Shown here one piece after another: positions 1-37,054 of a stretch of DNA of 64,000 nt (position 1 is the first letter of the stretch; every line of letters starts with the position of its first letter). A program made the translations under genes and the position numbers. The notes below the pieces were generated by a model. That model did no database searches and had not been told where the DNA came from. It was given only the letters and a program-made list of their open reading frames with translations. The stretch is from Roseimaritima ulvae (lineage in GTDB: Bacteria > Planctomycetota > Planctomycetia > Pirellulales > Pirellulaceae). The DNA lies in NCBI RefSeq assembly GCF_008065135.1, contig NZ_CP042914.1, forward strand, positions 806,001 through 870,000, given 5' to 3'.

Positions 1-599
1 TCATCAGCCAAGGGGATGCCGGCAGCATTCACGCTGGGGTCTCCGTCGGTGAATAAGATGATGGTGTCAACACCGGGTAAACCGTAGGCCGCTTGCAGGG
101 CTTTATAGGTGTTGGTCATGTTTTCGGCGCGGAGCGTGCGGACATGTGCACAGGCGCGTTCGACGTTGCGATCGGAGTGTTCGAGCATGCGGTTCGGTTG
201 CCAGACGTGAGCCTCATGGTTGAAGCTGACCACGTTAAAATCTTCGGACGGCAACTCTGTGATTTTTAGGCAGAACTGATTGAGGTAGTGCTCCGGGATG
301 GCGTTAGAATCCTCCGACTCTGCCATGCTTCCGGAAACGTCGATGACGTAAACGACGTGCTTCAAGTTGCCTCCCAGGCCCGTTAAAGCTTTCTGAAGTT
401 GAGCTAACCGCTGGACGTTTTCTTGCGCGGCATCTCGTTCCGTTTCCGCTTGCTGCTGTTTGTGTTGTGCTTCTTGAACGATCTGCTGGCTTCGTTCTTC
501 CATTGCCAAGAGCAGCAACAGGGTCCCCCCCAACGCGCAGGAAATGACGTCCAGGAATGACACGCTGAAGACTTGAACGTCGCGGCCTCGTATTCGCAT
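1..599 (-). CDS. VWA-domain protein with N-terminal membrane anchor, partial
   Basis: The C-terminal part lies beyond the left edge; about 199 codons are visible from the ATG at 599. Residues 1-35 hold the planctomycete SFLDVISCALGG motif followed by one hydrophobic helix of mostly Leu. Residues 36-75 look like a Gln/Glu-rich coiled coil. A von Willebrand factor A domain starts near residue 82 with the MIDAS motif DVSGSM, and a later FTDGDP fits the second metal-site strand. The topology (short N-terminus, one TM, coiled coil, then a large domain) resembles MotB/ExbD-type stator partners with a VWA domain in place of OmpA. The ATG lies 3 nt after the stop of the upstream MotA/TolQ/ExbB gene, which supports a channel pair. 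The stator role is inference; the VWA call is firm. Confidence 0.85.
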   Translation of the reverse strand, partial: MRIRGRDVQVFSVSFLDVISCALGGTLLLLLAMEERSQQIVQEAQHKQQQAETERDAAQENVQRLAQLQKALTGLGGNLKHVVYVIDVSGSMAESEDSNAIPEHYLNQFCLKITELPSEDFNVVSFNHEAHVWQPNRMLEHSDRNVERACAHVRTLRAENMTNTYKALQAAYGLPGVDTIILFTDGDPSVNAAGIPLAD

Positions 600-602
600 C
601 CG

Positions 603-1415
603 TTACTCCTTCTTGATGTGCATGCGGTGAACGAATCTTTTCATACATGCTTCCAGCACGCGGACCAGCAAAGAGTCTTCGTCTGCTTGGACCCGATGGA
701 CGAAATACATCAGGATCAAACTCAATACCAAGGCTACGAATGTGGTGTCGAAGGCGGTACTTAGGTGACCCGCCGCAGCGGAGATTAGCGACTCTCCTTC
801 CGCGTCCTGGCCAAACACACCCATAGCTTCGCCAATGCCCATCACGGTGCCCACAAAACCGATCGAGGGAATGGCCCAGGCCAAGTATCGAATGGTTGCG
901 TACTGCGATTCCGTTTCTGCCTGAATGATTTCCGCATGGGACTCGAGCGCTGCGCTAACGTCCTCAGCCGACCAATTCGCTCGGGCTCGCTGCAAGGCGG
1001 TTCCTAATAGGAGGTTGATCATCGACGGATCCGTCTGGTTGGGTTGGTTCATGGCTTGACGCAACTGCAACGCATCTTCTGGCAGCAACAGGGTTTGGTC
1101 ATCGGGGCTCAACATGGATTCATCAATTTTTTGGGACTGCACGTTCACAAACCGCCACCGCGCGGCCAGCGATGCCAGGGCGGCCCCAAATGCCATTAGC
1201 GTGAACAGGTTGATCCAGTGTTGCATCGATCGCAGCATGATCGGAACACTAGCGGGACTTGAGACGTTTTCGGGGCCCACCACCCATTGAACGCCCACGA
1301 ATTGAAATAGCAAGATATGCCCAATCACAAGCCAGAAGATTCCCCCGAGAGCAGCTCCGATCAACAACGGTCCCAGAGATGCGGGCTTAGGCGAAACGGA
1401 TGATGAGTTAGCCAT
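603..1415 (-). CDS. MotA/TolQ/ExbB proton channel family protein
   Basis: 270 aa. Four hydrophobic segments are visible, at about residues 14-38, 67-84, 172-195 and 222-240. The last two carry the family signature: IPSIGFVGTVMGIGEAMG, then a Thr-rich stretch (STAFDTTFVALVLSLIL). Known members form pentameric inner-membrane channels that use ion flow to power a MotB/ExbD/TolR-type partner. The partner here is probably the VWA protein whose start is 3 nt downstream. The gap to the upstream FHA gene is 76 nt, the largest within the operon. The function (transport, envelope work or a defence-type motor) cannot be read from the sequence. Confidence 0.88.
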   Translation of the reverse strand: MANSSSVSPKPASLGPLLIGAALGGIFWLVIGHILLFQFVGVQWVVGPENVSSPASVPIMLRSMQHWINLFTLMAFGAALASLAARWRFVNVQSQKIDESMLSPDDQTLLLPEDALQLRQAMNQPNQTDPSMINLLLGTALQRARANWSAEDVSAALESHAEIIQAETESQYATIRYLAWAIPSIGFVGTVMGIGEAMGVFGQDAEGESLISAAAGHLSTAFDTTFVALVLSLILMYFVHRVQADEDSLLVRVLEACMKRFVHRMHIKKE

Positions 1416-1472
1416 GTATCTGCTACAGTCGCAAAGAAGTTTGAGTAAGAAAGAAAAGCGGTTGTGGACGCT

Positions 1473-1510
1473 CTACTGGGAAGCAAAACGACTACTGGGA
1501 AGCAAAACGA
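1473..1510. repeat. Exact 19-bp tandem duplication at a stop codon
   Basis: Positions 1473-1491 and 1492-1510 are identical 19-mers (plus strand CTACTGGGAAGCAAAACGA). The stop codon (TAG) of the minus-strand FHA gene sits at 1494-1492, so the duplicated unit encodes the last residues RFASQ and the stop, then repeats them past the stop. It looks like a recent slippage product. Confidence 0.9.
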
Positions 1511-2946
1511 AACGTGGGCCCCGACTCGCCCAGTTGAAACTGGTCGCCGTTTTGAATGCGATGAATGGAGATGCGTTCGCCGTTGACGAACGTTCCGTTG
1601 GTGCTGTTGAGGTCTTTGAGGAAGTACTCACTCTTGCGTTTCAACAACACGCAATGTTCAAATGACAGTTCTGGGTACTTGTCGGATGGAAAGGACCATT
1701 CGGCTTTGGGGCTGCGGCCAATTAGCAATTGCGCCCCAACGACACGTTTCTCATTCGTTTCGACAATCGTAATTGCGGCGGGGGTCGGAACCCGTCCGGC
1801 TGCTAGGGAAACGGGAAGGTCTCGCAACACGGGAATCACATCCATCGATTCCGAGACTTCCAATAGAGCCGTCCAATACGCGCCGGTTTCCGTGTCGATG
1901 GCCTCGTACAAATCGGCGTTGTCCAGGCAGTTCGATTCGGTGGTGGCGGCACATAATCTCGCCGTGCCCGCCGCAACGGAGTCAAGAGAACAGTGGATGG
2001 GCTGGGTGCCTCCGCGACAGAAAGGCAGGCACCAGTCGGCAATGGGTAATATCAACGTTAGTTCGCCCCACAGCACAACGTCGATCGTGTCGGACTGGAT
2101 GTTTTTGACCAGGGACTCAAGAGCGCCGCGCAAGGATGTCGCCATGTCTGCGGCCATCTCCATCATCACAACGCCATCTAGGTTTCGTTGCAGGCGTCTG
2201 CCGAGCACCGTTGCATCGATAGTGGCCGTTCCTGAATGAGCCAGTTGGATGAACGCACGATCAACCGAATTCACAATTTGGCAATAGGCTTCCAAGTGTT
2301 CGCGTGGGTCTAATCGAAATTCGGAAATCATTTCCTCGGCAACCCAATCGATGATTCGTTTCTTAAGCTTCGCTCCAGAAATCGAATTCAATCGGACACT
2401 TTTCAACGGCGTCCAGCATTGCTCTTTAAGTTGGCAGAGGGTTAGCCGGGCGGGGCCACTGCCGAGTGAGGCGAAGATGCTCACGTCGCCGCAGAGCTCG
2501 GCATTGGTGCAGCAAATCGTTTGCCATTCGCGTACGAACATTGCTGGTCGAACGCCATTGCGAAAAACGGTGCCGAGTGTCCAGTTGGCATGCCCCCAGT
2601 CGTCCGGAATCGACATCGCGAAATCATTCGTCAACTGCAACGTTGACAAAATCGCTTGGAAGAACTCTGCCAGGATAAGCTGGCGATTATGGACGAGCCG
2701 TTTCGCTTCGTCATCAATGTCGTCTCGAAAGGAGGAGGCTATCGACCTGTTCATGGCCCGCTGATCATAGACGTCCCAGCCAACGGCGACGCCCGGTTGT
2801 GGACTATTCTGCTGCTGGAACAATGAAATCGCCGTGGGCAGGAACGGGTCGGTCTGACTTAATTGAATCAGTACCTGTTGATCGCCAATATCGTTTGTCG
2901 ACGCAACCTTGAGCATTTCCGATCCGAAGTCGATGCCGTAGTACAT
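1492..2946 (-). CDS. Hsp70/actin-like ATPase-fold protein with C-terminal FHA domain
   Basis: 484 aa. The N-terminus YYGIDFGSEMLKVA matches the phosphate-1 loop of Hsp70/actin-like ATPases, and VVLWGELTLILPIADW near residue 290 resembles their adenosine-binding stretch. The middle phosphate-2 loop is degenerate: FASLGSGPARLTL, where an Asp is expected at the first Ser. ATP hydrolysis may therefore be lost. Residues about 395-484 form an FHA domain with IGRS, SFEHC and LNSTNGTFVNGE, predicted to bind phosphothreonine peptides. It lies between the FHA-protease and channel genes in one operon with a Ser/Thr kinase, so it is a likely reader of that kinase. No TM segment is seen. Two neighbours encode other FHA proteins; only this one has the ATPase fold. 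Confidence 0.75.
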   Translation of the reverse strand: MYYGIDFGSEMLKVASTNDIGDQQVLIQLSQTDPFLPTAISLFQQQNSPQPGVAVGWDVYDQRAMNRSIASSFRDDIDDEAKRLVHNRQLILAEFFQAILSTLQLTNDFAMSIPDDWGHANWTLGTVFRNGVRPAMFVREWQTICCTNAELCGDVSIFASLGSGPARLTLCQLKEQCWTPLKSVRLNSISGAKLKKRIIDWVAEEMISEFRLDPREHLEAYCQIVNSVDRAFIQLAHSGTATIDATVLGRRLQRNLDGVVMMEMAADMATSLRGALESLVKNIQSDTIDVVLWGELTLILPIADWCLPFCRGGTQPIHCSLDSVAAGTARLCAATTESNCLDNADLYEAIDTETGAYWTALLEVSESMDVIPVLRDLPVSLAAGRVPTPAAITIVETNEKRVVGAQLLIGRSPKAEWSFPSDKYPELSFEHCVLLKRKSEYFLKDLNSTNGTFVNGERISIHRIQNGDQFQLGESGPTFRFASQ

Positions 2947-2961
2947 GGTGTGGAGCTCTCG

Positions 2962-4374
2962 TTAATGTTGTTCTAAGAGTTCGTGGAGCTCGTCAATACG
3001 TATGCAAAACGGCAGCACTCCAGGGTTGTCGCCGGCGGCGAGGATGCCACCTGCGAGGATGGCGACAACTTGCCCATCTTTATCAAAAATGGGGCTGCCG
3101 CTTGCGCCGCCCCGTTGGGCGCTCATGTCATTCTCGATCAGTCGTAGCTCTCCTTCGTTATCCTCTTTGTAAGAACAGACACGCACAATTTTTCCCACAC
3201 CGGTCCTGGGGATCACTTGTTTTTTGTCGGCCAAGTAGTCGCCTCTATTAAACACGGGAAAACCTACAAAGCAGAGGTCGGTTCCCGGGGACAGCGATTG
3301 GGCACGCGAACGAGAGGCAAGCCGCACCGGGCGAATTTTTTCGTCGTAGTCTTTAACCGTCAGTAGTCCAACATCCGGGTAATGTCTTGAGAGATCGACA
3401 TCCGCGTCGGTCGCATCTCGATAATCGGGATGGGTGATAGCCGCATCGATCGTAAAAACCAGCTCACCCGCTTCGCTAATCAACATGGCTTGTCCACCAT
3501 TTGCGAGCACCCGCTCGACGCCGCGTGTGACGTGTGAGTTGGTTGCGAAAGTTCCTTGCCGATCCACCAGGAAAGCCGTCGCTCGACTGACTTCATCTCC
3601 ATCCTGTGTGATGACCAGAAACACCGAACCCCGCCAGTCCGCAAGTATCTGCTGCGCATTCATGCTGCTGGGGCGTTGAAAGACGGCCAGCAGGACCAAC
3701 AGCAAGACCAGCAATACCGCTCCCAAGCCCGCGACGCCACCGACCGCAAACGCTTTCCATCTTTTCTGCTGGCCTTCCAGTTGACGGACCATCATCCTGG
3801 TGGTGGAACTGGATTGGTTTCCCTGTTCGTGCTGCTGGGACGTAGCGTCAGCGTGCCACCGGGAGGCCGGGGCAGGCGGCGCAGGACGCGAATCGGCAGC
3901 AGCGGGACTGGGGTGGGGGCGTAAGCCGTCCGCCACCACGCCGCCGCCGTGCTGGGTGTGTCGAAAGACGCTTGGCCTGTCGGGCATGGGAGTGATCGAT
4001 GCCGGCGGTGCTGCGCTGTGATCGACGTTTGGAGTGACCCGCAAGGGCGCATGTTCGGGGGCCCTTGCAGGGGCGGCGTAATCGAGTATCCGCAGGGCGG
4101 GCCCGGATTTGCCCAGCCGCACCAGATCTCCACGATCGATCGAGACGGTGCCCCGCAACGGTTCGTCATTGACGAAAGTTCCGTTGGCTGAACCGAGGTC
4201 CGTGACCTCCAGACCGGTGTCGCCGACGTGGAAGCGGACGTGCTTTGACGAGACGACCGATTGTGCGATCACCAGATCACAGGCGCGACTGCGTCCGGCT
4301 GTCATGACTGTTTGATCAAACGTTCGGTCGACTCGTGTTTGCGGATCTAGGCAGACTTCAAGACGCAGTTTCAT
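2962..4374 (-). CDS. FHA domain - TM helix - trypsin-like serine protease
   Basis: 470 aa. An FHA domain spans residues 1-98 (AGRSRACDL, SSKHVRFH, LGSANGTFVND). A Pro/Ala-rich linker follows (100-200), then one TM helix at about 206-232. The rest (245-470) is a trypsin/DegP-like protease with a plausible triad: His281 in TNSHV, Asp334 in PDVGLL, and Ser425 in GGASGSP. No PDZ domain is seen. This topology puts the FHA in the cytoplasm and the protease outside, so phosphopeptide binding could control proteolysis across the membrane (inference). The start ATG shares one base with the stop of the preceding gene (TGATG), which indicates translational coupling. Confidence 0.87.
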   Translation of the reverse strand: MKLRLEVCLDPQTRVDRTFDQTVMTAGRSRACDLVIAQSVVSSKHVRFHVGDTGLEVTDLGSANGTFVNDEPLRGTVSIDRGDLVRLGKSGPALRILDYAAPARAPEHAPLRVTPNVDHSAAPPASITPMPDRPSVFRHTQHGGGVVADGLRPHPSPAAADSRPAPPAPASRWHADATSQQHEQGNQSSSTTRMMVRQLEGQQKRWKAFAVGGVAGLGAVLLVLLLVLLAVFQRPSSMNAQQILADWRGSVFLVITQDGDEVSRATAFLVDRQGTFATNSHVTRGVERVLANGGQAMLISEAGELVFTIDAAITHPDYRDATDADVDLSRHYPDVGLLTVKDYDEKIRPVRLASRSRAQSLSPGTDLCFVGFPVFNRGDYLADKKQVIPRTGVGKIVRVCSYKEDNEGELRLIENDMSAQRGGASGSPIFDKDGQVVAILAGGILAAGDNPGVLPFCIRIDELHELLEQH

Positions 4375-5444
4375 CAGGGGAACCTTATGCAGAAACGTTG
4401 CTCACCAATTTGAAAGTGAGCTCGCATATCGATTTTTTTTTCTTTGATCGAAAGCCACGTTCCGTTCAGCGAATCCAGATCAAGGATATGCCAGCGACGG
4501 TGTTCGTCCATGTAAATACGAGCGTGTTTCGAACTGACCGTTTCATCATCGCCAATAAAAATGTCGCAATCTTTCTCACAACCAATTATTTGGTCGGTAC
4601 CGTTGAATTTGAACTCGCGGGTTTCGCCTTGGGGCGTGATGCGAATGATCGACTGCTTGGCTTGGAAATTCTCGTCGGGGTTTACTTTCTGCCAGCCCAG
4701 CGTTTTGTTGGACTGCTCGACGGCCTGTTCGGGCTGCGACGCTGCGCGGCCGCTGCCTTGAGGTGCCGCGTTAAACCGGTAGCGAAACGCACCAATGATG
4801 AATTCACGATTGTGCGGTAGTTTGCTGGTCTTGAGTCGCAGGTATGTTCCGTTGGTGCTGCCCAAATCGGTTAGGTACCAACTGTGATAGTCGTTCTCCA
4901 GGCGACGGGAAATTTTGGCGTGTTCGCCGGACATCAGAAGCTCGTGGGGCACGACGAAATCACCAGACGAGCGGCCGATAACGAATTCCGGACCTCTGAG
5001 CCGTACGACGTCTGCGGTTTGCATGTCGTCATCGAAAATGGACAGGATCGCCATCGGTGGTCGCAGCACCGGACGATAACTCACGGCCCGGTCGCGTTTG
5101 CCCTTGTCGGCCGAACGAACGTCGTCGAAGTAGGTGCCTGGCGCGATGGCTCCACGCGAGGGCGGGGAGTCTATCGATTCAGGCTTGGTGTCCCGTTCGT
5201 CGCCAAACCCTTCGCCAGAATCATCACCGAAGCTGGCGCTGGGGTCCTCGGGCTCGCCATACAGTGGTTTCCGATCCAACGCTGTGTCGGGATAGTCGAT
5301 GCCGGGTTTTTCAGATCGGGTCGCACCGGTTTGCTGGGGCGAGGCGACCGACGCGTTACGAAGATCGAAAAAGCAATTCATGCAAAAGTTTTCATCTTCG
5401 CTAACGGGTTGGCCGCAATGAGGGCATTTGTCTGCGTAGACCAT
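4374..5444 (-). CDS. Zinc-ribbon protein with two FHA domains
   Basis: 356 aa, apparently cytoplasmic. Cys7, Cys10, Cys21 and Cys24 (CPHCG, then CMNC) form an N-terminal zinc ribbon. A polar, Asp/Ser-rich linker follows to about residue 130. The first FHA domain (about 135-225) shows VIGRSSGD, SGEHAKIS and DLGSTNGTYL. The second (about 270-356) shows IIGCEKDCDI, SSKHARI and DLDSLNGTWL. Two phosphopeptide readers on one soluble protein suggest an adaptor that links phosphorylated partners. The gene lies 12 nt after the GAP1-like gene and overlaps the start of the FHA-protease by one base. Confidence 0.88.
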   Translation of the reverse strand: MVYADKCPHCGQPVSEDENFCMNCFFDLRNASVASPQQTGATRSEKPGIDYPDTALDRKPLYGEPEDPSASFGDDSGEGFGDERDTKPESIDSPPSRGAIAPGTYFDDVRSADKGKRDRAVSYRPVLRPPMAILSIFDDDMQTADVVRLRGPEFVIGRSSGDFVVPHELLMSGEHAKISRRLENDYHSWYLTDLGSTNGTYLRLKTSKLPHNREFIIGAFRYRFNAAPQGSGRAASQPEQAVEQSNKTLGWQKVNPDENFQAKQSIIRITPQGETREFKFNGTDQIIGCEKDCDIFIGDDETVSSKHARIYMDEHRRWHILDLDSLNGTWLSIKEKKIDMRAHFQIGEQRFCIRFP

Positions 5445-5456
5445 GGTGCTGCTCAG

Positions 5457-8156
5457 TTATTTGGTTTGCGAAGAGCGAGGTACAAGTAAATAGAGGGTCG
5501 TGTCTTCGACGGTTAAGGTGGCATGCAAGTTGAGCGGAAATTCAATTTCGGCGTCATGCATTGCCTGGGTATAGGCGATGGCCTGTTCGAGATCCGCTGG
5601 CACCGCTGGCACCGCTGGTGCCGCTGGGTCGGTCGCGTCCAGTTCGGTAGGTTGGGGCAGTAACTCTTTCAAGTCTTCCAGGTCCTTCAACAGTAAATCT
5701 CTGGAGGTCGCCGCGTTGGGTTTCTTTTTGGGCCCAGCGATATACCGAGTGCACTTGGCGCTGAGTTCGCAGGAGGGAAGTTGATTGCTACCGCGGTCAG
5801 ATGTTTTCACATTGAGCTGGGGAGGATCGATTTTCAATTCGGTTAGCGATTCCGATTCCCCCTGAATTGTTCCTGGATGGAACGCAACCGTCGCTTTCAT
5901 TGGCTTTCGCCAGATCTCAATATTTGCAATGAACTCAGCAGCCTTCTCGAGACGATTTTGTGAGTTATTCGAAAAAGGGTTGATGGTTTTTCTGGGAGAG
6001 TCTTGGAAGTCGTCCATCGTCAATGATTGCGGTTCATGGTATCGAAACGGCTGCAGGAATTGGTATTTACGCGTCAGCGTCACCTGTTCTGGTGTGGTCA
6101 GTTTGGCTACTAGCAAGTAATCAGAAGACGCAAAGACCATGCGCAAATACAAGCCGGGTACCTTGCAATCAAGTGTCAGGAGTCGCTGGCTTTTCGTCGG
6201 GATATACAGTTCGGCAACTGTGTTTTGTCCCATCCGCAACTCCCACAGATTTTCACGGGAATTGGATTGCTGAAAATTAAACTGATACTCACTCGGTTCT
6301 TGAGAGTAGGTGATGCCGCCGTTCCAGCATCGCTCTAAAGTCAACTCCAGCTTGTATTCGTTCGGCAGCGCTAACGAGGAAATCGGCAGATTGCGTGTGG
6401 ATTTGCGCGGAAACGGAAAGACGTAGTCGGCGGCTGCTCGCCCTACAGGTAGTTTTTGGTAAAGCGAGATTGATTCAAGAAAGGATTCGGCAAGCTGCTC
6501 TGGGGTAGCGGGACGTGCAGCCTCAGGCGTCCCACTGTCAGACGCGTCGGCTTTGGCAGGCGTGCCTGTTCCATCATTAGGCGTGTTGGGGGCAGCGTCT
6601 GAAGTGCCGGTGGCAGCGTCCGATGCAGCCATGTTGTCGCCGGGCGCCGTGGTGCTGTCGCCGGCCGTCGTGGCGCTGTCACCGGGCGCTGTGGCGCTGT
6701 CACCGGGCGCTGTGGCGCTGTCACCGGGCGCTGTGGCGCTGTCGCCGGGCGTCGTGGCGCTGTCACCGGGCGTCGTGGCGCTGTCACCGGGCGCCGTGGT
6801 GCTGTCGCCGGGCGCTGTGGCACTGTCACCGGGCGCCGTGGCACTGTCGCCGGGCGTCGTGGCACTGTCGCCGGGCGTCGTGGCGCTGTCACCGGGCGCC
6901 GTGGCGCTGTCACCGGGCGCCGTGGTGCTGTCACCGGGCGCCGTGGTGCTGTCGCCGGGCATTGTGGCATCGTCTGTCGGCGTGGCGACCGTGTTAATCG
7001 TAGTCGTTTCTTGATTTGGATTTGTGACGGGGGTGTTTTCTTGTTGGCCGAATCTGGAAGCCACGATGAGCGTCGCGGGGACGCACAGCAGCACGACCGC
7101 AACGAAGCCGATTAATCCAATGATTAACAGTGTTTTGCTGTCAGGCGACCTTGTCCCGGCCGGGCGATGACGTCCCGGTGGCGAATGGCCGGCCGTTCGC
7201 TGATCGGGGACGAGGTTGGCGATCGGCGGTTCGGCGGGCAGGCTCCCCTCAGGCGGTGGAGGAGGCGGCGTTGCCGGAGATTGGGGCCGCGTGGAAAAGA
7301 CTCGCCCTGGGGATTGGTTTGCGTCGAGCAAAACGCCGCTGCGGGCGGCGTCGGCTGCGGGGCCGTCGGGGCAAGGTTCCGGATTGGCAAGATCAAGGAA
7401 GACTCCATTGGGCATGCCGTGAGCCGCTTGTAGTTCCGGCGAGGTTCGCTCCACGAACCGCCAGTTGCAGGTGATCTGCGGAGGCAACTCGGAGTAGTTG
7501 GTTGCAAAAGTGGCTTTCCAGCGATCTTTTGGCGGTAGCAGTGCGACGGCTTCCTGTACCAATCGCAGCACGTCGGTATTTGAGTCATAGACCATCAAGA
7601 GCGGATGCGGTGCGCGTTGAAGAGCTGTTTCGGCGAGTCGACCGGCCCAGCCTGCGTCGCCGGTTATCTGTTGCCAGTACTGACAGCTTTGCGCGGTCAC
7701 CGTCGCGTCGGGTATGCGTTTTTCGGTTTTGATCGTTTGTGGTTCGCCGCCCCAGCTGCCGAGAAAAACACGCGGTTGCGACATTACCCAGGCGGGGCCT
7801 GCCAAGGAATGCTCTGCATCGTCTAGCACCAGAAAGTGGCTGAGTTTGCGAAGCCGACTCGAGTAATCAAATTCGGCGAGGCAAGTTTTTAGCAGAACGC
7901 TTTTGGATTCGCGGCGATAGTCAAACTTGAGATGGGCGAAGTTGGGCGGATTGACCCGCAACAGGTGTTCATAGTTCGCGGGCGTCGCCGCCACACTTTT
8001 ACCATTTAAAGTATTGTTGATGCGGTAGACGCTAAGGCTCTCAAGAAAGTTGCACTGGGTCCGCGGCATGCCCTCGGTGATAAGGACCGGGCAGTATCCG
8101 CTGGTGCCAGGGAAAACGCCCTCGCGAACGGACGTATAGACCATTTGTTTAGCCAC
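5457..8156 (-). CDS. GAP1-like GTPase-associated membrane protein with heptapeptide repeats
   Basis: 899 aa from a GTG start with AGGGAG nine bases upstream. The N-terminus (QMVYTSVREGVFPGTSGYC, then SVYRINNTL) resembles the GTPase-associated protein 1 N-terminal domain described from predicted bacterial conflict and signalling systems; this is recognition from memory, not a search. A TM helix lies at about residues 345-370. Residues 400-508 are about 16 tandem units of the PGDSATA type. Residues 560-899 form a folded-looking domain that I do not recognise. The topology suggests the GAP1 domain is cytoplasmic and the C-terminal half is outside. The next upstream gene encodes a kinase fused to a GTPase, which fits the GAP1-GTPase pairing. 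Confidence 0.72.
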   Translation of the reverse strand: MAKQMVYTSVREGVFPGTSGYCPVLITEGMPRTQCNFLESLSVYRINNTLNGKSVAATPANYEHLLRVNPPNFAHLKFDYRRESKSVLLKTCLAEFDYSSRLRKLSHFLVLDDAEHSLAGPAWVMSQPRVFLGSWGGEPQTIKTEKRIPDATVTAQSCQYWQQITGDAGWAGRLAETALQRAPHPLLMVYDSNTDVLRLVQEAVALLPPKDRWKATFATNYSELPPQITCNWRFVERTSPELQAAHGMPNGVFLDLANPEPCPDGPAADAARSGVLLDANQSPGRVFSTRPQSPATPPPPPPEGSLPAEPPIANLVPDQRTAGHSPPGRHRPAGTRSPDSKTLLIIGLIGFVAVVLLCVPATLIVASRFGQQENTPVTNPNQETTTINTVATPTDDATMPGDSTTAPGDSTTAPGDSATAPGDSATTPGDSATTPGDSATAPGDSATAPGDSTTAPGDSATTPGDSATTPGDSATAPGDSATAPGDSATAPGDSATTAGDSTTAPGDNMAASDAATGTSDAAPNTPNDGTGTPAKADASDSGTPEAARPATPEQLAESFLESISLYQKLPVGRAAADYVFPFPRKSTRNLPISSLALPNEYKLELTLERCWNGGITYSQEPSEYQFNFQQSNSRENLWELRMGQNTVAELYIPTKSQRLLTLDCKVPGLYLRMVFASSDYLLVAKLTTPEQVTLTRKYQFLQPFRYHEPQSLTMDDFQDSPRKTINPFSNNSQNRLEKAAEFIANIEIWRKPMKATVAFHPGTIQGESESLTELKIDPPQLNVKTSDRGSNQLPSCELSAKCTRYIAGPKKKPNAATSRDLLLKDLEDLKELLPQPTELDATDPAAPAVPAVPADLEQAIAYTQAMHDAEIEFPLNLHATLTVEDTTLYLLVPRSSQTK
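6633..6959 (-). repeat. 21-bp tandem repeats encoding PGDS(A/T)T(A/T)
   Basis: About fifteen and a half units of 21 bp lie within the GAP1-like gene. The units differ mainly at residues five and seven (Ala or Thr), plus silent changes, so the array has been homogenised but is not identical. It sits just after the TM helix, probably outside the cytoplasmic membrane, where it would form a flexible Ser/Thr/Pro stalk. Confidence 0.93.
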
Positions 8157-8182
8157 TCAATTGCACTCCCTAGATAGCATGC

Positions 8183-10699
8183 TCAAACTTTCCGGATCAA
8201 ACCGCGGCGAATATTGCTAAGCAAGGTTAGCAATGGGACCTCGGCCCACATCGGGTTCAGGTCTTTCGTGCGTACGCCATCTACTCCGGTTTGCGCGTCT
8301 TGCTCAATGGGCCGCCCAAATGCGCTGGTTGGCACATAGGTTACGTCTGAGAACAGGTCTTCGGTGGTCGATACGACTTCGGGGCAGTGAGCCAATAGAA
8401 CCTGCCGCATCTTTTTGGAGAAGCTTTTGATGTACGACAGGTCCAGCGAATCGGGAAGCGAGGGATCACGACGTTTGGATTTTCCCCAGGGGTCACGAAG
8501 TCGTTTGCCGTTAAAGTGAGCTGCCCAAGCATCGTATTTGTTGACCACAAAGATCAGTGGCTTGTCGCATTTCTGATGGGACGAAGATTGCCCAAATTTC
8601 TTGATTCGGTTCGCAACTTCGATCAGTGAAAGTTCCTGGCGAACGGTGTTGCCGCCATAAAACCCAGAGTGAAACTGAGGGTCTGTGGACCTGCCGATGG
8701 CGGCCCGGAATTTCGGGTGTTGAGAGGGGTCGAACACGAATATGAGAGCGTCCGCACATGCCAAATGGCGTGTGGAGTGATTCGCATTTCCTGGCAAAAA
8801 TTGTTCGCCCGGTTGGTCATACATACATAGTGTGTACGAAATGCCTTGGGCCGAATGGAAGTTAGGGTGGGTGGGCATGGGACGCAACGAAAAGATCATC
8901 GGTTGCGCTAAGCTGACCTGCTTACCATCAATCGTGGTGTGCTTATAGCCATCCCCTTCGACCATCGTCTTGGGCAGTCGAGTCAGCTTGCCGGAGTCTT
9001 GCAGAAACAGCACGTCTTCGTGGGCGCAAAGATTTGCGTTCAGCTCGGGGTCCGCATCCGTAAACGTCAACTGAAAATTGTTCGGCAACGTTTTGCGTAG
9101 CTGCCATGCCATCGATGTGATCAGGCAACTTTTGCCCGAAGTGGGGATACCCACGACGGACACAAAGATCGGCTGGAAGTCAATGAACTCCCGCGGCACG
9201 AGCAAATGACAACTGGGACAGGCCGTGCGGTGGCAGCGACTTCCGCGCGCGTCAATGCCCTCGCAGTCCGCCGTAAATAGATCCGGAAGAAATCGTTTTT
9301 GCTCATTGGGTAGTTTGAAGTCGCCGTGCAGGTCTGGATGCTCAGCGATCCAGAGGATTTCATGCGGACGAAACTGATTCCAGCACCAAGGGCATGTCAA
9401 GCTACGGCTATGCCAAGCGGGAACGCGAACGCTGCCTCCCTGCTGGGGTTGGCGGACCGCAGGGCCGACGACCGCAAGGGGCTCGCTTGCTGCCGCGCGA
9501 TGCTTGTCCGATAGGGGTTCGGTGGGAGCCGAATCCGTATCCGTGGTGGGCGCTGAAATCGCTTCCGTTGCGGTTTCTCGTTTGCTAGGCCGGAACACAC
9601 TGCTACGACGTTTCGAATCTGCCTGGTAAGGCGCTGTGGTTGGCGGGCCTGCAACCGGTCGCAAGCCGCCACTACGGCTAGCCGTAGTGGGGACCGGTTG
9701 GGTTTGCAATGGACGCGGCTGTTTCGGCTGCGACGGCACCGGCCGAGCATGAGTTTGCTGAACCAAGGGCTGGCTGGGTTGGCGTTGATTGGGTTGGCTT
9801 TGAACTTCACTTGGGGCGGTTTTGGTAAAGGCTTCTAAGTAGGCGTCGGCAAATCGCACGCAACTGGCAAATCGCTGGGACGGTTGCGGCGACAGCGCTC
9901 GATGGATTGCGTCAGCAGCTTGCTCTGGCAAACCGACGCACAGCGATTCAATGCGTTCGGGTTGATTCGCTTTCTGTAGCATGCTGATGCGCGAGGGGTT
10001 ATTGCCCTTAAAGGGCCGCTTGCCGGCAAGCACTTCGTAGAGTGTCACCGCAAGGGCGTATTGATCAACTTTTCCATCCAACTTTTCCCCTAGCAACAGT
10101 TCATACGCGCTGTACTCCAGAGTGCCCACAACTTGGTCGGCATGGGTGATCGCCGGTCTGGACGCGGTGGCTTCGCTGGTAATTTTGGCGATGCCAAAAT
10201 CGGCTAGGTAGGGACGCCCCGCGTCATCAAACAGAATGTTTGCCGGTTTTACATCGCGGTGAATGAATTTTCTGGCATGCACAAAGTCCAGGGCCTCTGC
10301 CATTTCGGACAACCACCGGAAGACTTTTCGCGGGTCGCTGCCCGCCAAATAGGCTTTGCGCAACCGCTGCATGCGGTCCTCGAGGGACCCGCCGGCAAGA
10401 TATTGCATGGCAACAAAGGGAACGCCCTCGTGTTCGCCCACATCGATCACATTCACGATCGCAGGGTGTTTGTTGGAAAGCTTTGCCAGCGAGTCCATTT
10501 CCAGCTGGAATCTGGCACGAAAACCCTCATCCTCCAACATCGATGGCAATGGGATTTTAAGAACGACCTCGGCGCCAATCGATTTTTGAATGGCCAGCCA
10601 CACCGAGCCCATCCCGCCGGCGCCGATGCATCGGATGACTTCGTACCTGCCTCCACCGATAATTTGTCCCGATAGGTCAAGATTGGATTGGCTCGACAC
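8183..10699 (-). CDS. Ser/Thr protein kinase fused to Cys-rich linker and GTPase domain
   Basis: 838 aa, GTG start with GAGG a few bases upstream. The kinase domain (about 18-290) has the Gly loop GAGGMGSV, Lys48 (VVLKI), HRD with Asp149 (IHRDVKPAN) and DFG with Asp168, so it should be active. A Pro/Gln-rich linker (295-430) leads to a Cys-rich segment (CPWC at 436-439, later C479, C489, C494 and C497), probably zinc-binding. The C-terminal domain is a GTPase: P-loop GIPTSGKS (517-524), DQPGE (628-632) as the DxxG motif, and NKYD (720-723) for guanine specificity. It is first in the operon and the likely source of phosphorylation for the four downstream FHA domains. No TM helix is seen. Kinase control of the GTPase, or the reverse, is inference. 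Confidence 0.9.
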   Translation of the reverse strand: MSSQSNLDLSGQIIGGGRYEVIRCIGAGGMGSVWLAIQKSIGAEVVLKIPLPSMLEDEGFRARFQLEMDSLAKLSNKHPAIVNVIDVGEHEGVPFVAMQYLAGGSLEDRMQRLRKAYLAGSDPRKVFRWLSEMAEALDFVHARKFIHRDVKPANILFDDAGRPYLADFGIAKITSEATASRPAITHADQVVGTLEYSAYELLLGEKLDGKVDQYALAVTLYEVLAGKRPFKGNNPSRISMLQKANQPERIESLCVGLPEQAADAIHRALSPQPSQRFASCVRFADAYLEAFTKTAPSEVQSQPNQRQPSQPLVQQTHARPVPSQPKQPRPLQTQPVPTTASRSGGLRPVAGPPTTAPYQADSKRRSSVFRPSKRETATEAISAPTTDTDSAPTEPLSDKHRAAASEPLAVVGPAVRQPQQGGSVRVPAWHSRSLTCPWCWNQFRPHEILWIAEHPDLHGDFKLPNEQKRFLPDLFTADCEGIDARGSRCHRTACPSCHLLVPREFIDFQPIFVSVVGIPTSGKSCLITSMAWQLRKTLPNNFQLTFTDADPELNANLCAHEDVLFLQDSGKLTRLPKTMVEGDGYKHTTIDGKQVSLAQPMIFSLRPMPTHPNFHSAQGISYTLCMYDQPGEQFLPGNANHSTRHLACADALIFVFDPSQHPKFRAAIGRSTDPQFHSGFYGGNTVRQELSLIEVANRIKKFGQSSSHQKCDKPLIFVVNKYDAWAAHFNGKRLRDPWGKSKRRDPSLPDSLDLSYIKSFSKKMRQVLLAHCPEVVSTTEDLFSDVTYVPTSAFGRPIEQDAQTGVDGVRTKDLNPMWAEVPLLTLLSNIRRGLIRKV

Positions 10700-10759
10700 A
10701 TCTGCCTCTAGTTTGCTGGGCTAAGAGGAATTAGGAATGGTTGGATAGGTTTGGAATGA

Positions 10760-10788
10760 TTGCGAAGCGATTTGGGGGGGAGTATACT
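10760..10788 (+). promoter_or_regulatory. Candidate sigma70-like promoter for the plus-strand gene pair
   Basis: TTGCGA (10760-10765), a 17-nt spacer, then TATACT (10783-10788). The -10 lies in a perfect 12-bp palindrome GGAGTATACTCC (10779-10790). The distance to the chosen start at 10925 is about 130 nt. Confidence 0.4.
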
Positions 10789-10809
10789 CCTCCTGTGGAG
10801 GACCTGCAA
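10781..10809 (-). promoter_or_regulatory. Candidate sigma70-like promoter for the minus-strand operon
   Basis: Read on the minus strand: TTGCAG (10809-10804), a 17-nt spacer, then TATACT (10786-10781). It shares the palindrome AGTATACT with the opposing candidate promoter, so the two -10 boxes overlap almost completely. A start of transcription near 10775 would leave about 75 nt before the kinase GTG. Confidence 0.35.
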
Positions 10810-10924
10810 GATTTTGTGAACGGCAAGTTACTGTCACCGCAACCAAGGCCCTCGGCGGGGTCTCGAAGTCCTCGGCAGCGTCTTGGCGACGGTTATTGGC
10901 ATTCTCATTCACGAGGACATTCCA

Positions 10925-11419
10925 TTGGTTGCAAAGGACCTGGTCTTTGATTTGCAGTTGGCGGCGTCCTACCCAAGTTCGAAGAGTGAACAGGAACTAC
11001 TGGTGTTGGCTCAACAGTACGCAGATGCTTGCTCACGCACCAATGAGCGAATTTTTGAATGTGTGAAGTTGTTGCGAGTTGGGATGCGCAGTGAAGCCAT
11101 CCGTTTGGCTGAATTAGAGCCCAATATTCTTGATGAATTGAGTTCCTTGAACTTTGGTGAGCGGGGCGCGTGGCTGGCGCTTGCCGAGCAGCTTGGTGTT
11201 CCCACGCCTGATCCCGCATTTGAGATGGCGCGAGAGATTAGCGACGCTTACGATCAACATGAAGAAACCAAGGGATTGGCATGCCAGCTACGCCTACAGA
11301 ACATCTATCGGCGCCCCAAAGAAGAGCGTTTGCAAACGCTGGAAAAGCTGCTGCAGGTCGACCCTAACAACCCCGCATGGCTAAGAAACTACAGTCTCCT
11401 GGAAGATTCAGTCGGCTAG
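10925..11419 (+). CDS. Conserved-looking soluble protein of unknown function
   Basis: 164 aa from the TTG at 10925, which has GAGGA seven bases upstream. An earlier in-frame TTG at 10883 would add 14 residues but has no clear ribosome site. There is no ATG in the open frame before residue 40. The protein is mostly helical, with a pattern of LAQQYADACSRTNERI, then LRVGMRSEAIRLAELEPNI and a C-terminal Leu-rich helix ending in DPNNPAWLRNY, which is TPR-like in flavour. I do not recognise a named domain. It is transcribed divergently from the kinase-GTPase operon and 21 nt before the GYF-like membrane protein, so both may belong to the same system. Confidence 0.6.
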   Translation: MVAKDLVFDLQLAASYPSSKSEQELLVLAQQYADACSRTNERIFECVKLLRVGMRSEAIRLAELEPNILDELSSLNFGERGAWLALAEQLGVPTPDPAFEMAREISDAYDQHEETKGLACQLRLQNIYRRPKEERLQTLEKLLQVDPNNPAWLRNYSLLEDSVG

Positions 11420-11440
11420 CTGTTTACGGTGAAATAGTAG

Positions 11441-12319
11441 ATGCACTTGATTAAACACCGCGGTAAAGTCGTCGGGAAAGCAACCTTCGAACAGATTGAA
11501 GTGCTGGTTCAGCGTGGCCAGATCACGCCCTACCACAAAATTTCCAGTGACGGTGGGCAAACGTGGACCTATGCATCGGATATTCCCGAGTTATTTGAAA
11601 CCGTGCCTGCTGCTCCCTCGCATGTTGAGCCTCCGCCCCGGGATCATGCTCCGCCACTCGCGGCGGAGAACGGAAATTGCCCTGCTTGTGGAGTCGCCAT
11701 CGACGCCCACGCCACGGTATGTCCGAACTGCCAATTTGATAAGAGTGGAGCACCAAGGATTAGCCTGGCAGCAGCTGATGCGACGACGAGTCGCACCGCG
11801 AAAAGTCCCAGTAGGATGTTGCTTTGCTATGCAATTGGAATGGGGGCCGCCTATTTATTTCTTATCGCCTGGGTCGCCTGTATCGCCGTCGAGGAAGAAA
11901 GTGGCACAGTTAGTTTCATTCCATTTTCTTTGTTCTATGTTTCGGCTTTGAGTCAGATGGTATTTTTTTGCATCTGGCTGTACCAGGCATGGACGACGCT
12001 GCCAGCGGCGTATCAAAATCGGGTCACCCCCGCGTCTGCCATTGGGTTTCTGTTTGTGCCGTTCTACAACCTGTATTGGGTTTTTGTAGCGATTCCAGGT
12101 TTGGCAAGCCGCTTGAGCCAGTGCCTTGGCGATCATGATCGCGAGTCCGCGGGAACCACGGGGTATGAGTTGGGGGTTGCCGCATGCGTCGCCGCGTTTA
12201 TGCCATGCCTCAACGTACTTGCTTGCCCGGTGCTCCTGTTAGTCTTCATGCTCCAGGTGGATGCAGCGAGACGGCGAATCGAAGGTGGTTCGCCGGAGCC
12301 GTCCTATGCGTACCAGTGA
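11441..12319 (+). CDS. GYF_2-like / zinc-ribbon / DUF4328-like membrane protein
   Basis: 292 aa. Residues 1-55 resemble the GYF_2 (DUF4339) domain: a short fold with GKVVGKATFEQIEVLVQRG and GQTWTYASDIPELF. A zinc ribbon follows, with CPAC and CPNC near residues 85-105. The C-terminal half has four hydrophobic segments and the phrase VTPASAIGFLFVPFYNLYWV, typical of DUF4328-type membrane proteins. The domain order is common for planctomycete envelope or stress proteins of unknown function. It lies 21 nt after the previous gene and ends 54 nt before a convergent gene. Confidence 0.7.
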   Translation: MHLIKHRGKVVGKATFEQIEVLVQRGQITPYHKISSDGGQTWTYASDIPELFETVPAAPSHVEPPPRDHAPPLAAENGNCPACGVAIDAHATVCPNCQFDKSGAPRISLAAADATTSRTAKSPSRMLLCYAIGMGAAYLFLIAWVACIAVEEESGTVSFIPFSLFYVSALSQMVFFCIWLYQAWTTLPAAYQNRVTPASAIGFLFVPFYNLYWVFVAIPGLASRLSQCLGDHDRESAGTTGYELGVAACVAAFMPCLNVLACPVLLLVFMLQVDAARRRIEGGSPEPSYAYQ

Positions 12320-34714: not shown

Positions 34715-35233
34715 ATGTCCCTGGGAACCGCTTTCCGAGCCTTTTTTGGCTCCCTGTTTAATTCGGAAGTTTCCGAACGTGTCCGCGCCGCCCTGGATGA
34801 CGAGCCGTCGCCGGCGAAAATCGAAGCCACGCCCCCGGCGCCCGCCCCCCCAAAACCGCCCGTTCGCAGCGACGCCATCGCCCTGCTGGCGACCTTGCAG
34901 CGCGAAGCCCGGTTGGTGGATTTGATTCAAGAAAAACTCGATTCGTTTTCCGATGCCCAGGTCGGCGCCGCGGCCCGGTCCTGTTTGCAGCAATCGGCCG
35001 CTACGCTGGATCGCATCGTGGGCCTGAAACCGATGGTCGAAGGCAGCGAAGGCCAATCGATCACCGTGCCCGAGGACGCTTCGGCGGCGGCCTATCAGTG
35101 GATCGGTGAAGGCAGCGGCAACCAGGGGCAACTGGTCCACCACGGCTGGCACGCGACTCGCCTGGACCTGCCCGAATGGACCGGCCAAGACGCCGATGCT
35201 CGTGTCGTCGCTCCCGCCCAAGTCAAGCGTTAA
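34715..35233 (+). CDS. DUF2760 domain protein
   Basis: 172 aa from the ATG at 34715 (MSLGTAFRAFFGSLFN is the usual family start); an in-frame start at 34667 is less likely. A short amphipathic N-terminal helix precedes a Pro-rich linker (residues 35-55), then the DUF2760 core (ALLATLQREARLVDLIQEKL, then a region ending LPEWTGQDADARVVAPAQV). The gene is followed after 13 nt by two Hsp70-like genes, an arrangement known from other bacteria in which DUF2760 accompanies atypical Hsp70s. The function is unknown; a chaperone accessory role is inferred. Confidence 0.85.
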   Translation: MSLGTAFRAFFGSLFNSEVSERVRAALDDEPSPAKIEATPPAPAPPKPPVRSDAIALLATLQREARLVDLIQEKLDSFSDAQVGAAARSCLQQSAATLDRIVGLKPMVEGSEGQSITVPEDASAAAYQWIGEGSGNQGQLVHHGWHATRLDLPEWTGQDADARVVAPAQVKR

Positions 35234-35246
35234 CGGAGACACCCAC

Positions 35247-37052
35247 GTGTCCAATCAACCTTCTGCTACCGCGTCCAACCCTCAGTTTTCCATCGGGATC
35301 GATCTGGGGACCACCAATTCGACGGTCGCCTTTGCCCCGCTGGACGACCCGGATTGCCAGCCCTCACTGCTGCCGATTCCGCAGATCGTCCAACCCGGCC
35401 AGATCGAGTCGCTGCCCTCGCTGCCTTCGTTTCTGTATCTGCCCCGCGAAGGCGAGCTGGAATCGCTGCAGACCCCGCTGGGGCTCGATCCGCAAGCCGG
35501 CATCGCGGGCGTTTATGCTCGGGCTCAGGCCGCCGACAACCCGCAGCGTGTGGTCGTGGCCGCCAAAAGCTGGTTGTGTCACAGCCGCCAGGGACGCAGC
35601 GAAGCGATCCTGCCCTGGCAGGCGCCCGCGGAAGTGCCGCGGGTCTCGGCGTTGGATTGTACGACCCGCTTTTTGCAGCATCTGGTGGCCGCGTGGCAAG
35701 CCGCTCATCCCAACGCTCCGCTGGCCGACCAACAGGTCGTGCTGACCGTTCCGGCGTCCTTCGATCCGGCCGCCCGCGAACTGACCCGGCAAGCCGCCAC
35801 CACGGCCGGCTTTCCCGCGGAATTTGTGTTGCTGGAAGAACCGCAAGCCGCCGTCTACTGCTGGCTCAGTCGACAGTCCGATAGCTGGCGACGTCAGCTG
35901 CACGCCGGGGATTCGATGTTGGTGGTCGACGTGGGCGGCGGCACCACCGACCTGACGCTGGTCACGGTGGCCGAAGCCGAGGGCGAACTGGTACTAGAAC
36001 GAACCGCCGTGGGCAACCATCTGCTGGTCGGTGGCGACAATATGGACCTCACGCTGGCCCATGTGGTGAGCCAGCAGCTGGCCGCTGAAGGCCACGAGCT
36101 GGATCCCTGGCAGAGCGTGTCGCTGTGGCATGCCTGCCGGGAGGCCAAAGAACGCCTGTTGTCGGACGACGGCCCGGACGAACACACGATCTCGGTGTTG
36201 GGACGCGGCAGTTCGCTGATCGGCGGCACGATTTCCACGACGATTCGCAAACCGCAAGCGGCCGAGGTGTTGGTCGATGGGTTCTTCCCCAAGTGCCAGC
36301 TCGGCGAGCGACCGCAGCGGCAGGCCAGCAGCGGTTTCCAGGACATCGGTTTGCCTTATGAATCCGATCCGGCGATCACCAAGCAGGTGGCCGCCTTCTT
36401 GACCGACCACACGGGCGAACAGGGCTTGCCCTCGCACCTGTTGGTCAACGGCGGCGTGTTTCGCAGTCAAGCCATCCGCGACCAGTTGTGCCAGACGGTT
36501 CGCGACTGGTGCGGCGACCAGTTGACCGAATACGCCGACCCGCAGCACCTGGACCACGCCGTGGCTGTGGGCGCGGCCTATTACGGTTGGACGAAAAACC
36601 ATGGCGGCGTTCGCATTCGCGGCGGCACCGCCAGGTCGTATTACATCGGTATCGAAACCGCGGGGCTGGCCATCCCCGGCATGCCGCGACCCTTGCGAGC
36701 GCTGTGCGTGGCGCCGCAGGGCATGGAAGAAGGCACGCAGGCCGACGTCCCCGGCGAACCGGTGGGCGTCGTCGTAGGCACCCCCGCACGCTTTCGGTTC
36801 TTCTCCTCCACCGTCCGCGGCGACGATCAGGTGGGTGTCAATTTGGATCGCTGGTCGCCGGAGGAACTGGTCGAAAGCGATCCCATCGAATTGCAACTGA
36901 CCAGCCAGAACGCCGGCGATGAACCCTTTGTGCCGGTGCGGTTCCACAGCCGCGTGACGGAGCTGGGGATGTTCGAACTGTGGTGCCATGCCACCCGCGG
37001 CGAAGACCAGTGGAAAATGGAATTTAATGTTCGCGACGAGGGAGAGGCGTAA
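35247..37052 (+). CDS. Hsp70 family protein (atypical, first of pair)
   Basis: 601 aa from the GTG at 35247 (GGAG eight bases upstream); an in-frame ATG at 35106 lies inside the DUF2760 gene and is rejected. Hsp70 marks: IGIDLGTTNSTVAFA, VVDVGGGTTDLTLV (phosphate 2) and LLVNGGVFRSQAIR. The ATPase loops look intact. The substrate-binding half is short and lacks the DnaK EEVD-type end. It is probably a specialised chaperone, not general DnaK. The gene is the middle of a three-gene operon, 2 nt before the next Hsp70. Confidence 0.88.
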   Translation: MSNQPSATASNPQFSIGIDLGTTNSTVAFAPLDDPDCQPSLLPIPQIVQPGQIESLPSLPSFLYLPREGELESLQTPLGLDPQAGIAGVYARAQAADNPQRVVVAAKSWLCHSRQGRSEAILPWQAPAEVPRVSALDCTTRFLQHLVAAWQAAHPNAPLADQQVVLTVPASFDPAARELTRQAATTAGFPAEFVLLEEPQAAVYCWLSRQSDSWRRQLHAGDSMLVVDVGGGTTDLTLVTVAEAEGELVLERTAVGNHLLVGGDNMDLTLAHVVSQQLAAEGHELDPWQSVSLWHACREAKERLLSDDGPDEHTISVLGRGSSLIGGTISTTIRKPQAAEVLVDGFFPKCQLGERPQRQASSGFQDIGLPYESDPAITKQVAAFLTDHTGEQGLPSHLLVNGGVFRSQAIRDQLCQTVRDWCGDQLTEYADPQHLDHAVAVGAAYYGWTKNHGGVRIRGGTARSYYIGIETAGLAIPGMPRPLRALCVAPQGMEEGTQADVPGEPVGVVVGTPARFRFFSSTVRGDDQVGVNLDRWSPEELVESDPIELQLTSQNAGDEPFVPVRFHSRVTELGMFELWCHATRGEDQWKMEFNVRDEGEA

Positions 37053-37054
37053 CG

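Follow-up and report, generated by a model that had tools for sequence, protein, structure and literature searches.

What would bring a Ser/Thr kinase, a GTPase and its GAP1 neighbour, FHA-domain proteins, a membrane protease, an Hsp70-like protein and a MotA/TolQ/ExbB-type ion motor together in one operon is the question raised by the first part of the DNA analysed here, a window of 64,000 nucleotides (G000:C1:806001-870000) in a closed 8.21-Mb planctomycete genome. The seven minus-strand open reading frames (ORFs) that a first-pass annotation had grouped as one phospho-signalling, GTPase and channel operon are all found in the ORF listing of the window where that annotation placed them, and their domains, motifs and spacing agree with the grouping. 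The operon itself, however, continues past the window and consists of eight same-strand genes: the first encodes the kinase-GTPase, and the last, VWA2, is a further VWA gene just beyond the edge, which also cuts the final 54 residues from VWA1 (Table 1). The intergenic gaps in operon order are 26, 12, -1, 15, 76, 3 and 18 bp, such that two FHA genes thought to lie 1 base apart in fact overlap by 1 base, and from this tight spacing we infer cotranscription; promoter-like and terminator scans gave matches within the scatter of shuffled sequences. Our preferred answer, to which we give roughly even chances, is that the operon encodes a machine that spans the envelope, is driven by ions and switched by a GTPase, and has had control by Thr phosphorylation added to it.

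This reading leans most on the company that the GTPase keeps in other genomes. Within the family, relatives of it occur in 54 of the 241 genomes, representing 22 of the 68 genera, and a scan of named genomes confirmed at least 484 among the candidates listed, the best 80 of which come from Planctomycetota, Lentisphaerae, Victivallales and Kiritimatiellota records and a few metagenome-assembled genomes labelled otherwise. Gene neighbourhoods were counted in the 47 loci, drawn from these best 80, whose sequence extends 8.5 kb or more beyond the GTPase on its downstream side; they were annotated with hidden Markov models (HMMs) built from the window and the first relatives, and are phylogenetically non-independent. 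GAP1 lies beside the GTPase in 45 of the 47, a ~970-residue helical-repeat membrane protein with a single transmembrane (TM) helix is present in 45, and a GYF-TM protein in 39. MotA was found in 20, a lower bound, as the 10-kb flanks cut some motors off; it is always on the same strand (19 copies at +5.8 to +9.5 kb, one upstream) and in 17 loci is accompanied by at least one B-type subunit. The usual order is GTPase, GAP1, ~970-residue protein, GYF, MotA, B1, B2. At the density of MotA_ExbB genes in the window's own genome (10 in 8.2 Mb), only about one chance match would be expected among 47 loci.

A separate kinase gene stands just upstream of the GTPase in eight of these loci, matching the fused kinase of the window. 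The divergent gene pair beside the operon (10883-12319, plus strand) belongs to the same family of neighbourhoods: its 178-residue protein, which has no Pfam match, resembles the cytosolic N-terminal part of the ~970-residue protein (phmmer, 1e-7 to 1e-23). Locus L157 shows another arrangement, in which the GTPase and GAP1-N2 are followed by a gene weakly similar to Ppx/GppA, MotA and a single TM-VWA protein. The expectation that all the genes would co-vary as a set held for this core but failed for the FHA, FHA-protease and Hsp70-like-FHA genes, which occur in none of the 47 relatives (Hsp70 is found in one, trypsin in none) and, on this comparison of gene content, are local additions. A conserved seven-gene set was thus discarded. 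As a separate observation, the GTPase of L230 is flanked by two B1/B2 pairs and two ~970-residue protein genes, a tandem arrangement of the module.

The switch half of the putative machine comprises the GTPase and GAP1. The fusion of kinase to GTPase was borne out: the kinase is unambiguous (Pkinase, 141 bits, 6e-41), with intact VVLK, HRD and DFG motifs, and the GTPase, although sub-threshold on its own (DO-GTPase2, 19.0 bits against a Pfam cut-off of 27), has orthologues with E-values down to 1e-103, one of which, in locus L155, scores 35.7 bits, above the cut-off. Its GxxxSGKS, DxxG and NKxD motifs (G1/G3/G4) are intact and the CPxCW/CPxC ribbon cysteines are conserved, so that GAP1 adjoins a zinc-ribbon DO-GTPase, as in GAP1-N2 systems, by way of orthology to L155. 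GAP1 matches both GAP1-N2 (62.3 bits) and GAP1-M (48.7 bits; cut-off 24 each) and carries one TM helix, in keeping with the membrane partner first proposed. Between positions 6635 and 6960, a 21-bp tandem repeat (15.5 copies, 91% matches) encodes its linker (PGDSATA...), a candidate length-variable tether.

Residues 1-284 of GAP1 were modelled with high confidence by AlphaFold2 (AF2; 36 relatives), showing a longin-type b-b-a-b-b-b-a order, and the fold search effectively covers this N-terminal part. The sole Foldseek match below 1e-3 was TagF (9t0n; E 2.5e-4), and a second structural comparison returned TagF (Z 7.2), DENND1B-Rab35 (7.0), a Lokiarchaeal longin (7.0), and DENND1A and DENND10 (6.8), with GATOR1, Lst4, FLCN-FNIP, TRAPP and C9orf72-SMCR8 ranked lower. 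The cytosolic domain is tentatively predicted to fold like TagF and the longin-DENN GTPase regulators, a likeness at the level of fold only; we give it weight because the top of the list consists almost entirely of GTPase regulators and the neighbouring gene encodes a GTPase. The GAP1 profile matched no PDB sequences, and membership in the TagF sequence family of the type VI secretion system (T6SS) was rejected, with no TagF_N (PF09867) match in the genome and a non-significant profile comparison. Elsewhere, TagF_N proteins (L294-L308) were seen in 25 of 179 planctomycete genomes, some inside very long open frames of up to 1463 residues, and stand-alone GAP1-N2 proteins of 260-460 residues occur without the GTPase module at L060:7597-8376(-), L061:9527-10906(-) and L062:10601-11866(+), the latter two adjoining genes that, from our reading of the sequence, resemble fliM.

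The motor half was recognized at the outset as a MotA/TolQ/ExbB and VWA pair, and both assignments stand. The 270-residue A subunit matches MotA_ExbB (49 bits, 6e-13), and its pore signature AIPSIGFVGTVMG...LSTAFDTT (WAIPxxGFxGTVxG...LSTAFDTT) is common to the GAP1-linked MotAs. VWA1 (VWA_2, 34 bits, 6.5e-8) retains the DxSxS and TDG motifs and is 31% identical to VWA2 across the matched part. In nearly all inspected relatives, B1 and B2 have an N-terminal helix with Asp at the same place (F-x-FQD in B1, L-x-LD in B2; a distant B1-like protein in L183 lacks it), while their periplasmic parts gave no convincing Pfam domain. A 46-column HMM of the GAP1-linked B helices ranked VWA1 (E 0.0023) and VWA2 (E 0.025) at the top of 1181 ORFs of the genome, with the pore Asp aligned. 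Together with the MotA signature, this ranking suggests that VWA1 and VWA2 are likely the two B subunits of the motor, each with an ExbD-like helix bearing Asp. Two different B subunits also follow MotA in other planctomycete loci; in four of these (L269, L271, L272 and L282), the first B helix reads PFLAV, with Asp replaced by Ala, and the second keeps FLD, which suggests motors that have a single ion-carrying Asp.

The remaining genes would supply the phosphorylation layer. All four FHA domains proposed for three proteins were recovered with Pfam, two in the 356-residue protein and one each in the 470-residue (4e-15) and 484-residue (3e-17) proteins. The 470-residue protein is also the TM trypsin-like protease that it was first taken for (Trypsin_2, 56 bits, 7e-15), with the triad H281, D334 and S425 present; a KRWK motif just before its TM helix suggests N-in topology, with the FHA domain predicted to be cytosolic and the protease periplasmic. 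The Hsp70/actin-like assignment of the 484-residue protein fared less well, as similarity to DnaK/Ssz1 is weak (phmmer E 0.009-0.5; DnaK 0.009), its N-terminal part has no Pfam match and no homologue in 240 other family genomes, and a single-sequence AF2 model was of low confidence (pLDDT, the predicted confidence score, 34). Pairwise profile comparison with neighbouring Hsp70s likewise found nothing. Its phosphate-2 loop reads ASLGSG in place of DLGGG, a change that suggests the protein may not hydrolyse ATP. Paralogues of the double-FHA protein lie beside kinases elsewhere in the same genome (L032, L037), and such paralogous FHA/kinase cassettes suggest that the FHA-type genes were recruited to the operon. 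The L032 cassette (L032:10835-16335; G000:C1:96835-102335) encodes a kinase-WD40 protein, a double-FHA protein and an FHA-FHA-TM-trypsin paralogue (L032:10835-12580), with neither GTPase nor motor.

Table 1. Operon genes and adjoining features, with positions in the window unless a contig position is given.
Feature	Position	Strand	Basis
Ser/Thr kinase fused to zinc-ribbon DO-GTPase, 838 aa	8183..10699	-	Pkinase; GTPase orthologues, motifs
GAP1: cytosolic GAP1-N2 and GAP1-M, one TM helix (342-368), repetitive linker, periplasmic C-terminal part (predicted)	5457..8156	-	Pfam, AF2
Zinc ribbon and two FHA domains, 356 aa; likely phospho-Thr adaptor	4374..5444	-	FHA x2
FHA, TM, trypsin-like protease, 470 aa	2962..4374	-	FHA, Trypsin_2
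Hsp70-like ATPase-domain protein with C-terminal FHA, 484 aa; Hsp70 assignment weak	1492..2946	-	FHA; weak DnaK similarity
MotA/TolQ/ExbB-type motor A subunit, four TM helices, 270 aa	603..1415	-	MotA_ExbB
VWA1, N-terminal ExbD/MotB-like helix with Asp17 and periplasmic VWA, 253 aa	1..599; full G000:C1:805838-806599	-	VWA_2
VWA2, 368 aa, Asp18	G000:C1:804713-805819, left of window	same strand as operon	18 bp past VWA1
Divergent promoter region between operon and opposite-strand pair	10700..10882	.	spacing
Helical-repeat protein, 178 aa	10883..11419	+	phmmer to N-part of relatives' ~970-aa protein
GYF, zinc ribbon, multi-TM protein, 292 aa	11441..12319	+	GYF_2 1e-5, borderline

The genomic setting bears on the history of the operon. 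Third-position GC content (GC3) of its genes is 0.56-0.64, compared with ~0.70 for genes to the left and 0.72 (median) elsewhere in the window, and the GTPase was not found in any of three congeners; both features fit horizontal gain or loss. No plasmid copy of VWA1 was found. A MoxR-DUF58-BatA cluster begins 286 bp after the operon, but it is kept in two congeners (MoxR 89% identical in G406 and 83% in G408) where other genes replace the operon. Since it is conserved in genomes without the operon, this cluster was excluded from the system, and a MoxR-vWA ternary system was set aside because MoxR is independent of the operon rather than a core member. At 35106-39877, a position unrelated to the operon, lies a pair of neighbouring Hsp70-like genes, of which the second contains DUF3731.

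In the machine that we favour, MotA would form a pentamer with one VWA1 and one VWA2 helix in its pore as non-identical B subunits, and the flow of ions would turn or displace the VWA heads of both on the periplasmic side. Assembly or unlocking of the motor would be controlled by an on/off switch made up of the GTPase and the longin/DENN-like domain that membrane-bound GAP1 has in the cytosol, with the periplasmic part of GAP1 sensing or anchoring. The fused kinase would mark partners on Thr, and through FHA domains the adaptor, the Hsp70-like protein and the membrane protease would then be recruited to the active complex, where the protease could cut a periplasmic target. Of this, the gene content, the intact catalytic motifs, the Asp and Thr ring of the pore and the synteny between switch and motor among relatives are observed, whereas the fold of GAP1 and the topology are predicted. 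We infer the GTPase-motor contact, the phospho-docking and the output, which we would prefer to see as a response to envelope damage or invasion.

Several observations weigh against this reading. About half of the relatives have no MotA nearby, implying that the motor is not obligatory or is situated elsewhere. The window MotA is very divergent and, in a 42-row tree, sits on a long branch with planctomycete MotAs that are not GAP1-linked (support 97/88), outside the GAP1-linked clade (100/99); forcing it into that clade gave p = 0.049 in an approximately unbiased test, such that vertical membership is unsupported, though not firmly rejected. Given this placement, the coupling of the window motor may be independent or secondary, and the linkage may have more than one origin. 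A search of 392 genomes of the phylum found no close VWA1 relative. The GAP1 fold matches, at Z ~7, fall below the caution line of Z 8, in a range where common folds match one another, and no link between GAP1 and TagF was seen at the sequence level, as hhalign with a cleaned TagF alignment was not significant. The protein contacts and activities of the model are drawn from sequence and prediction, which constrain no particular output among defence, stress response and surface force; phage defence is no more favoured than other uses. More tentatively, and with considerable doubt, the operon may represent a distinct planctomycete class of machines, each built around a 5:2 ion motor whose two B subunits differ and which is switched directly by a GTPase together with a bacterial regulator of longin/DENN type. 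On this view, the one switch would have acquired motors of different kinds (ExbD-like pairs, VWA pairs, a single VWA) on more than one occasion, and the window copy would add a full kinase-FHA-protease layer.

Other explanations of the locus were considered. The low GC3, the lack of the operon in three congeners, in two of which the syntenic MoxR site is without it, its patchy occurrence across the family, and the prediction of GAP1-N2 systems, together with their GTPases, as conflict systems (PMC7159879), a pairing that the first-pass annotation had right, would all suit a defence system that works like Zorya without being Zorya, as would a 5:2-type motor with a regulatory switch. Here the motor would sense an invader's breach of the wall or membrane and signal inward to an effector. 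However, the cluster contains no nuclease, TIR or toxin effector, and ten neighbouring proteins compared with PADLOC yielded no defence genes. The Zorya likeness raised earlier extends to the motor principle and stops short of membership: MotA ends shortly after its last TM helix and so has no long cytoplasmic ZorA tail; the periplasmic part of VWA1 is a VWA domain, with no OmpA match in VWA1 or VWA2 and no peptidoglycan-binding domain; and the operon proteins matched no ZorC, ZorD or ZorE, just generic kinase and protease models and, across the shared channel region, ZorA at E 6.6e-5. We consider this explanation rather unlikely.

A small chance, in our estimation, also attaches to a surface force or adhesion machine like the Myxococcus Agl-Glt apparatus, in which a MotA/TolQ-type motor with a pair of unlike B subunits would be positioned by the GTPase and linked through the FHA-TM protein to a periplasmic chain that serves attachment, gliding-like movement or the transport of coat or polymer. 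In Agl-Glt, the MotA/TolQ protein AglR works with two different TolR-like subunits and is bound by the FHA-TM protein GltG, alongside TPR proteins and the cytosolic GTPase MglA (PMC3169522, PMC3858216). Planctomycetes commonly have MotA alongside two unlike B subunits, and window FHA proteins resemble GltG at sub-threshold level (E 3e-9 and 3e-4), but the window GTPase is a DO-GTPase, not MglA, and no outer-membrane, TonB-box or adhesin component was recognized in the cluster. To our knowledge, gliding has not been established in these bacteria, which also counts against such a machine. Alternatively, two modules without direct contact could happen to share a transcript: a stress cassette of kinase, GTPase, FHA and protease genes, and a VWA motor that serves the general upkeep of the envelope. 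The motor-free cassette of L032, the failure of the MotA tree to group the window motor with GAP1-linked ones, and the half of GAP1 loci without a nearby MotA speak for such a pairing of unrelated modules. It is improbable in view of the same-strand linkage of GAP1 and GTPase with MotA and a B-type pair, which recurs in distant planctomycetes far above expectation, and of the further GAP1-MotA-VWA arrangement in L157.

The apparent union of GAP1/GTPase and motor genes yields a concrete hypothesis, namely that a GTPase gates an ion motor, and recurrence of the switch-plus-motor core across planctomycetes opens an uncharacterised class of bacterial machine to testing. Should the fold match of GAP1 hold, bacteria would possess a longin-DENN-type GTPase regulator, with a bearing on the origin of eukaryotic Rab/Rag regulators. 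The first-pass suggestion of an undescribed system needs qualifying, as the GAP1-N2/GTPase class was published in 2020 as predicted conflict systems (Kaur et al. 2020, PMC7159879). That paper does not contain the MotA/ExbB motor in synteny with the planctomycete GTPase and GAP1, the VWA proteins as likely B subunits or the predicted GAP1 fold, and mentions no longin, roadblock or TagF; a partial literature search found no paper joining GAP1/GTPase to a motor or giving GAP1 a TagF/longin-DENN fold.

Agl-Glt and Zorya are best regarded as analogues, and we claim membership in neither. With Agl-Glt, the operon shares a MotA/TolQ motor with non-identical B subunits, an FHA-TM protein and a cytosolic GTPase; the GTPase family differs, the Agl-Glt B subunits are TolR-like and lack VWA, and the large periplasmic and outer-membrane Glt set did not turn up here, no search having been aimed at MglA or Glt. 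Zorya (ZorAB; PMC11890865) resembles the operon in having a MotA-like motor, of the 5:2 make-up that is proposed here, and in being a system for which a reaction to the envelope has been suggested. In the PpkA-Fha-TagF pathway of the T6SS, as may be the case for this operon, a membrane machine is regulated by three kinds of protein, namely a kinase, FHA readers and one with the TagF fold, and TagF represses the T6SS through binding Fha (PMC5995506), a precedent by analogy for a TagF-fold protein meeting an FHA protein; GAP1, however, stands outside the TagF sequence family and has a GTPase as its partner instead.

The nearest relatives are the two systems of which the operon appears to be composed. 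As in the published GAP1-N2 systems, GAP1-N2 is joined to GAP1-M with a C-terminal TM segment and adjoined by a zinc-ribbon DO-GTPase, and kinase, Hsp70, vWA, trypsin and GYF proteins are found in various of them (PMC7159879). That description names no MotA/ExbB, its FHA mentions concern other systems, and its kinase theme is actinobacteria-restricted and accompanied by PP2C, whereas the window kinase is fused to the GTPase (PMC7159879). Its FNIII partner was not recognized here: the ~970-residue partner of the relatives has no Pfam FNIII match, and the window keeps only the N-terminal part. TPH-vWA/TolQ-like pairs consist of a MotA/TolQ-like gene followed by two different vWA proteins with an ion-binding Asp helix; they have been reported mainly from Proteobacteria and Verrucomicrobia, with function unknown (PMC12204202, 2025). 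The window has the same layout, with a MotA/TolQ-like A subunit, a heterologous vWA pair bearing Asp in the N-terminal helix and no exbD or tolR gene adjoining, but places it within a GTPase/kinase/FHA operon. Both halves, the GAP1/DO-GTPase systems and the vWA TolQ-like motors, are thus already described separately, and these two sets of uncharacterised genes appear to be parts of one planctomycete machine.

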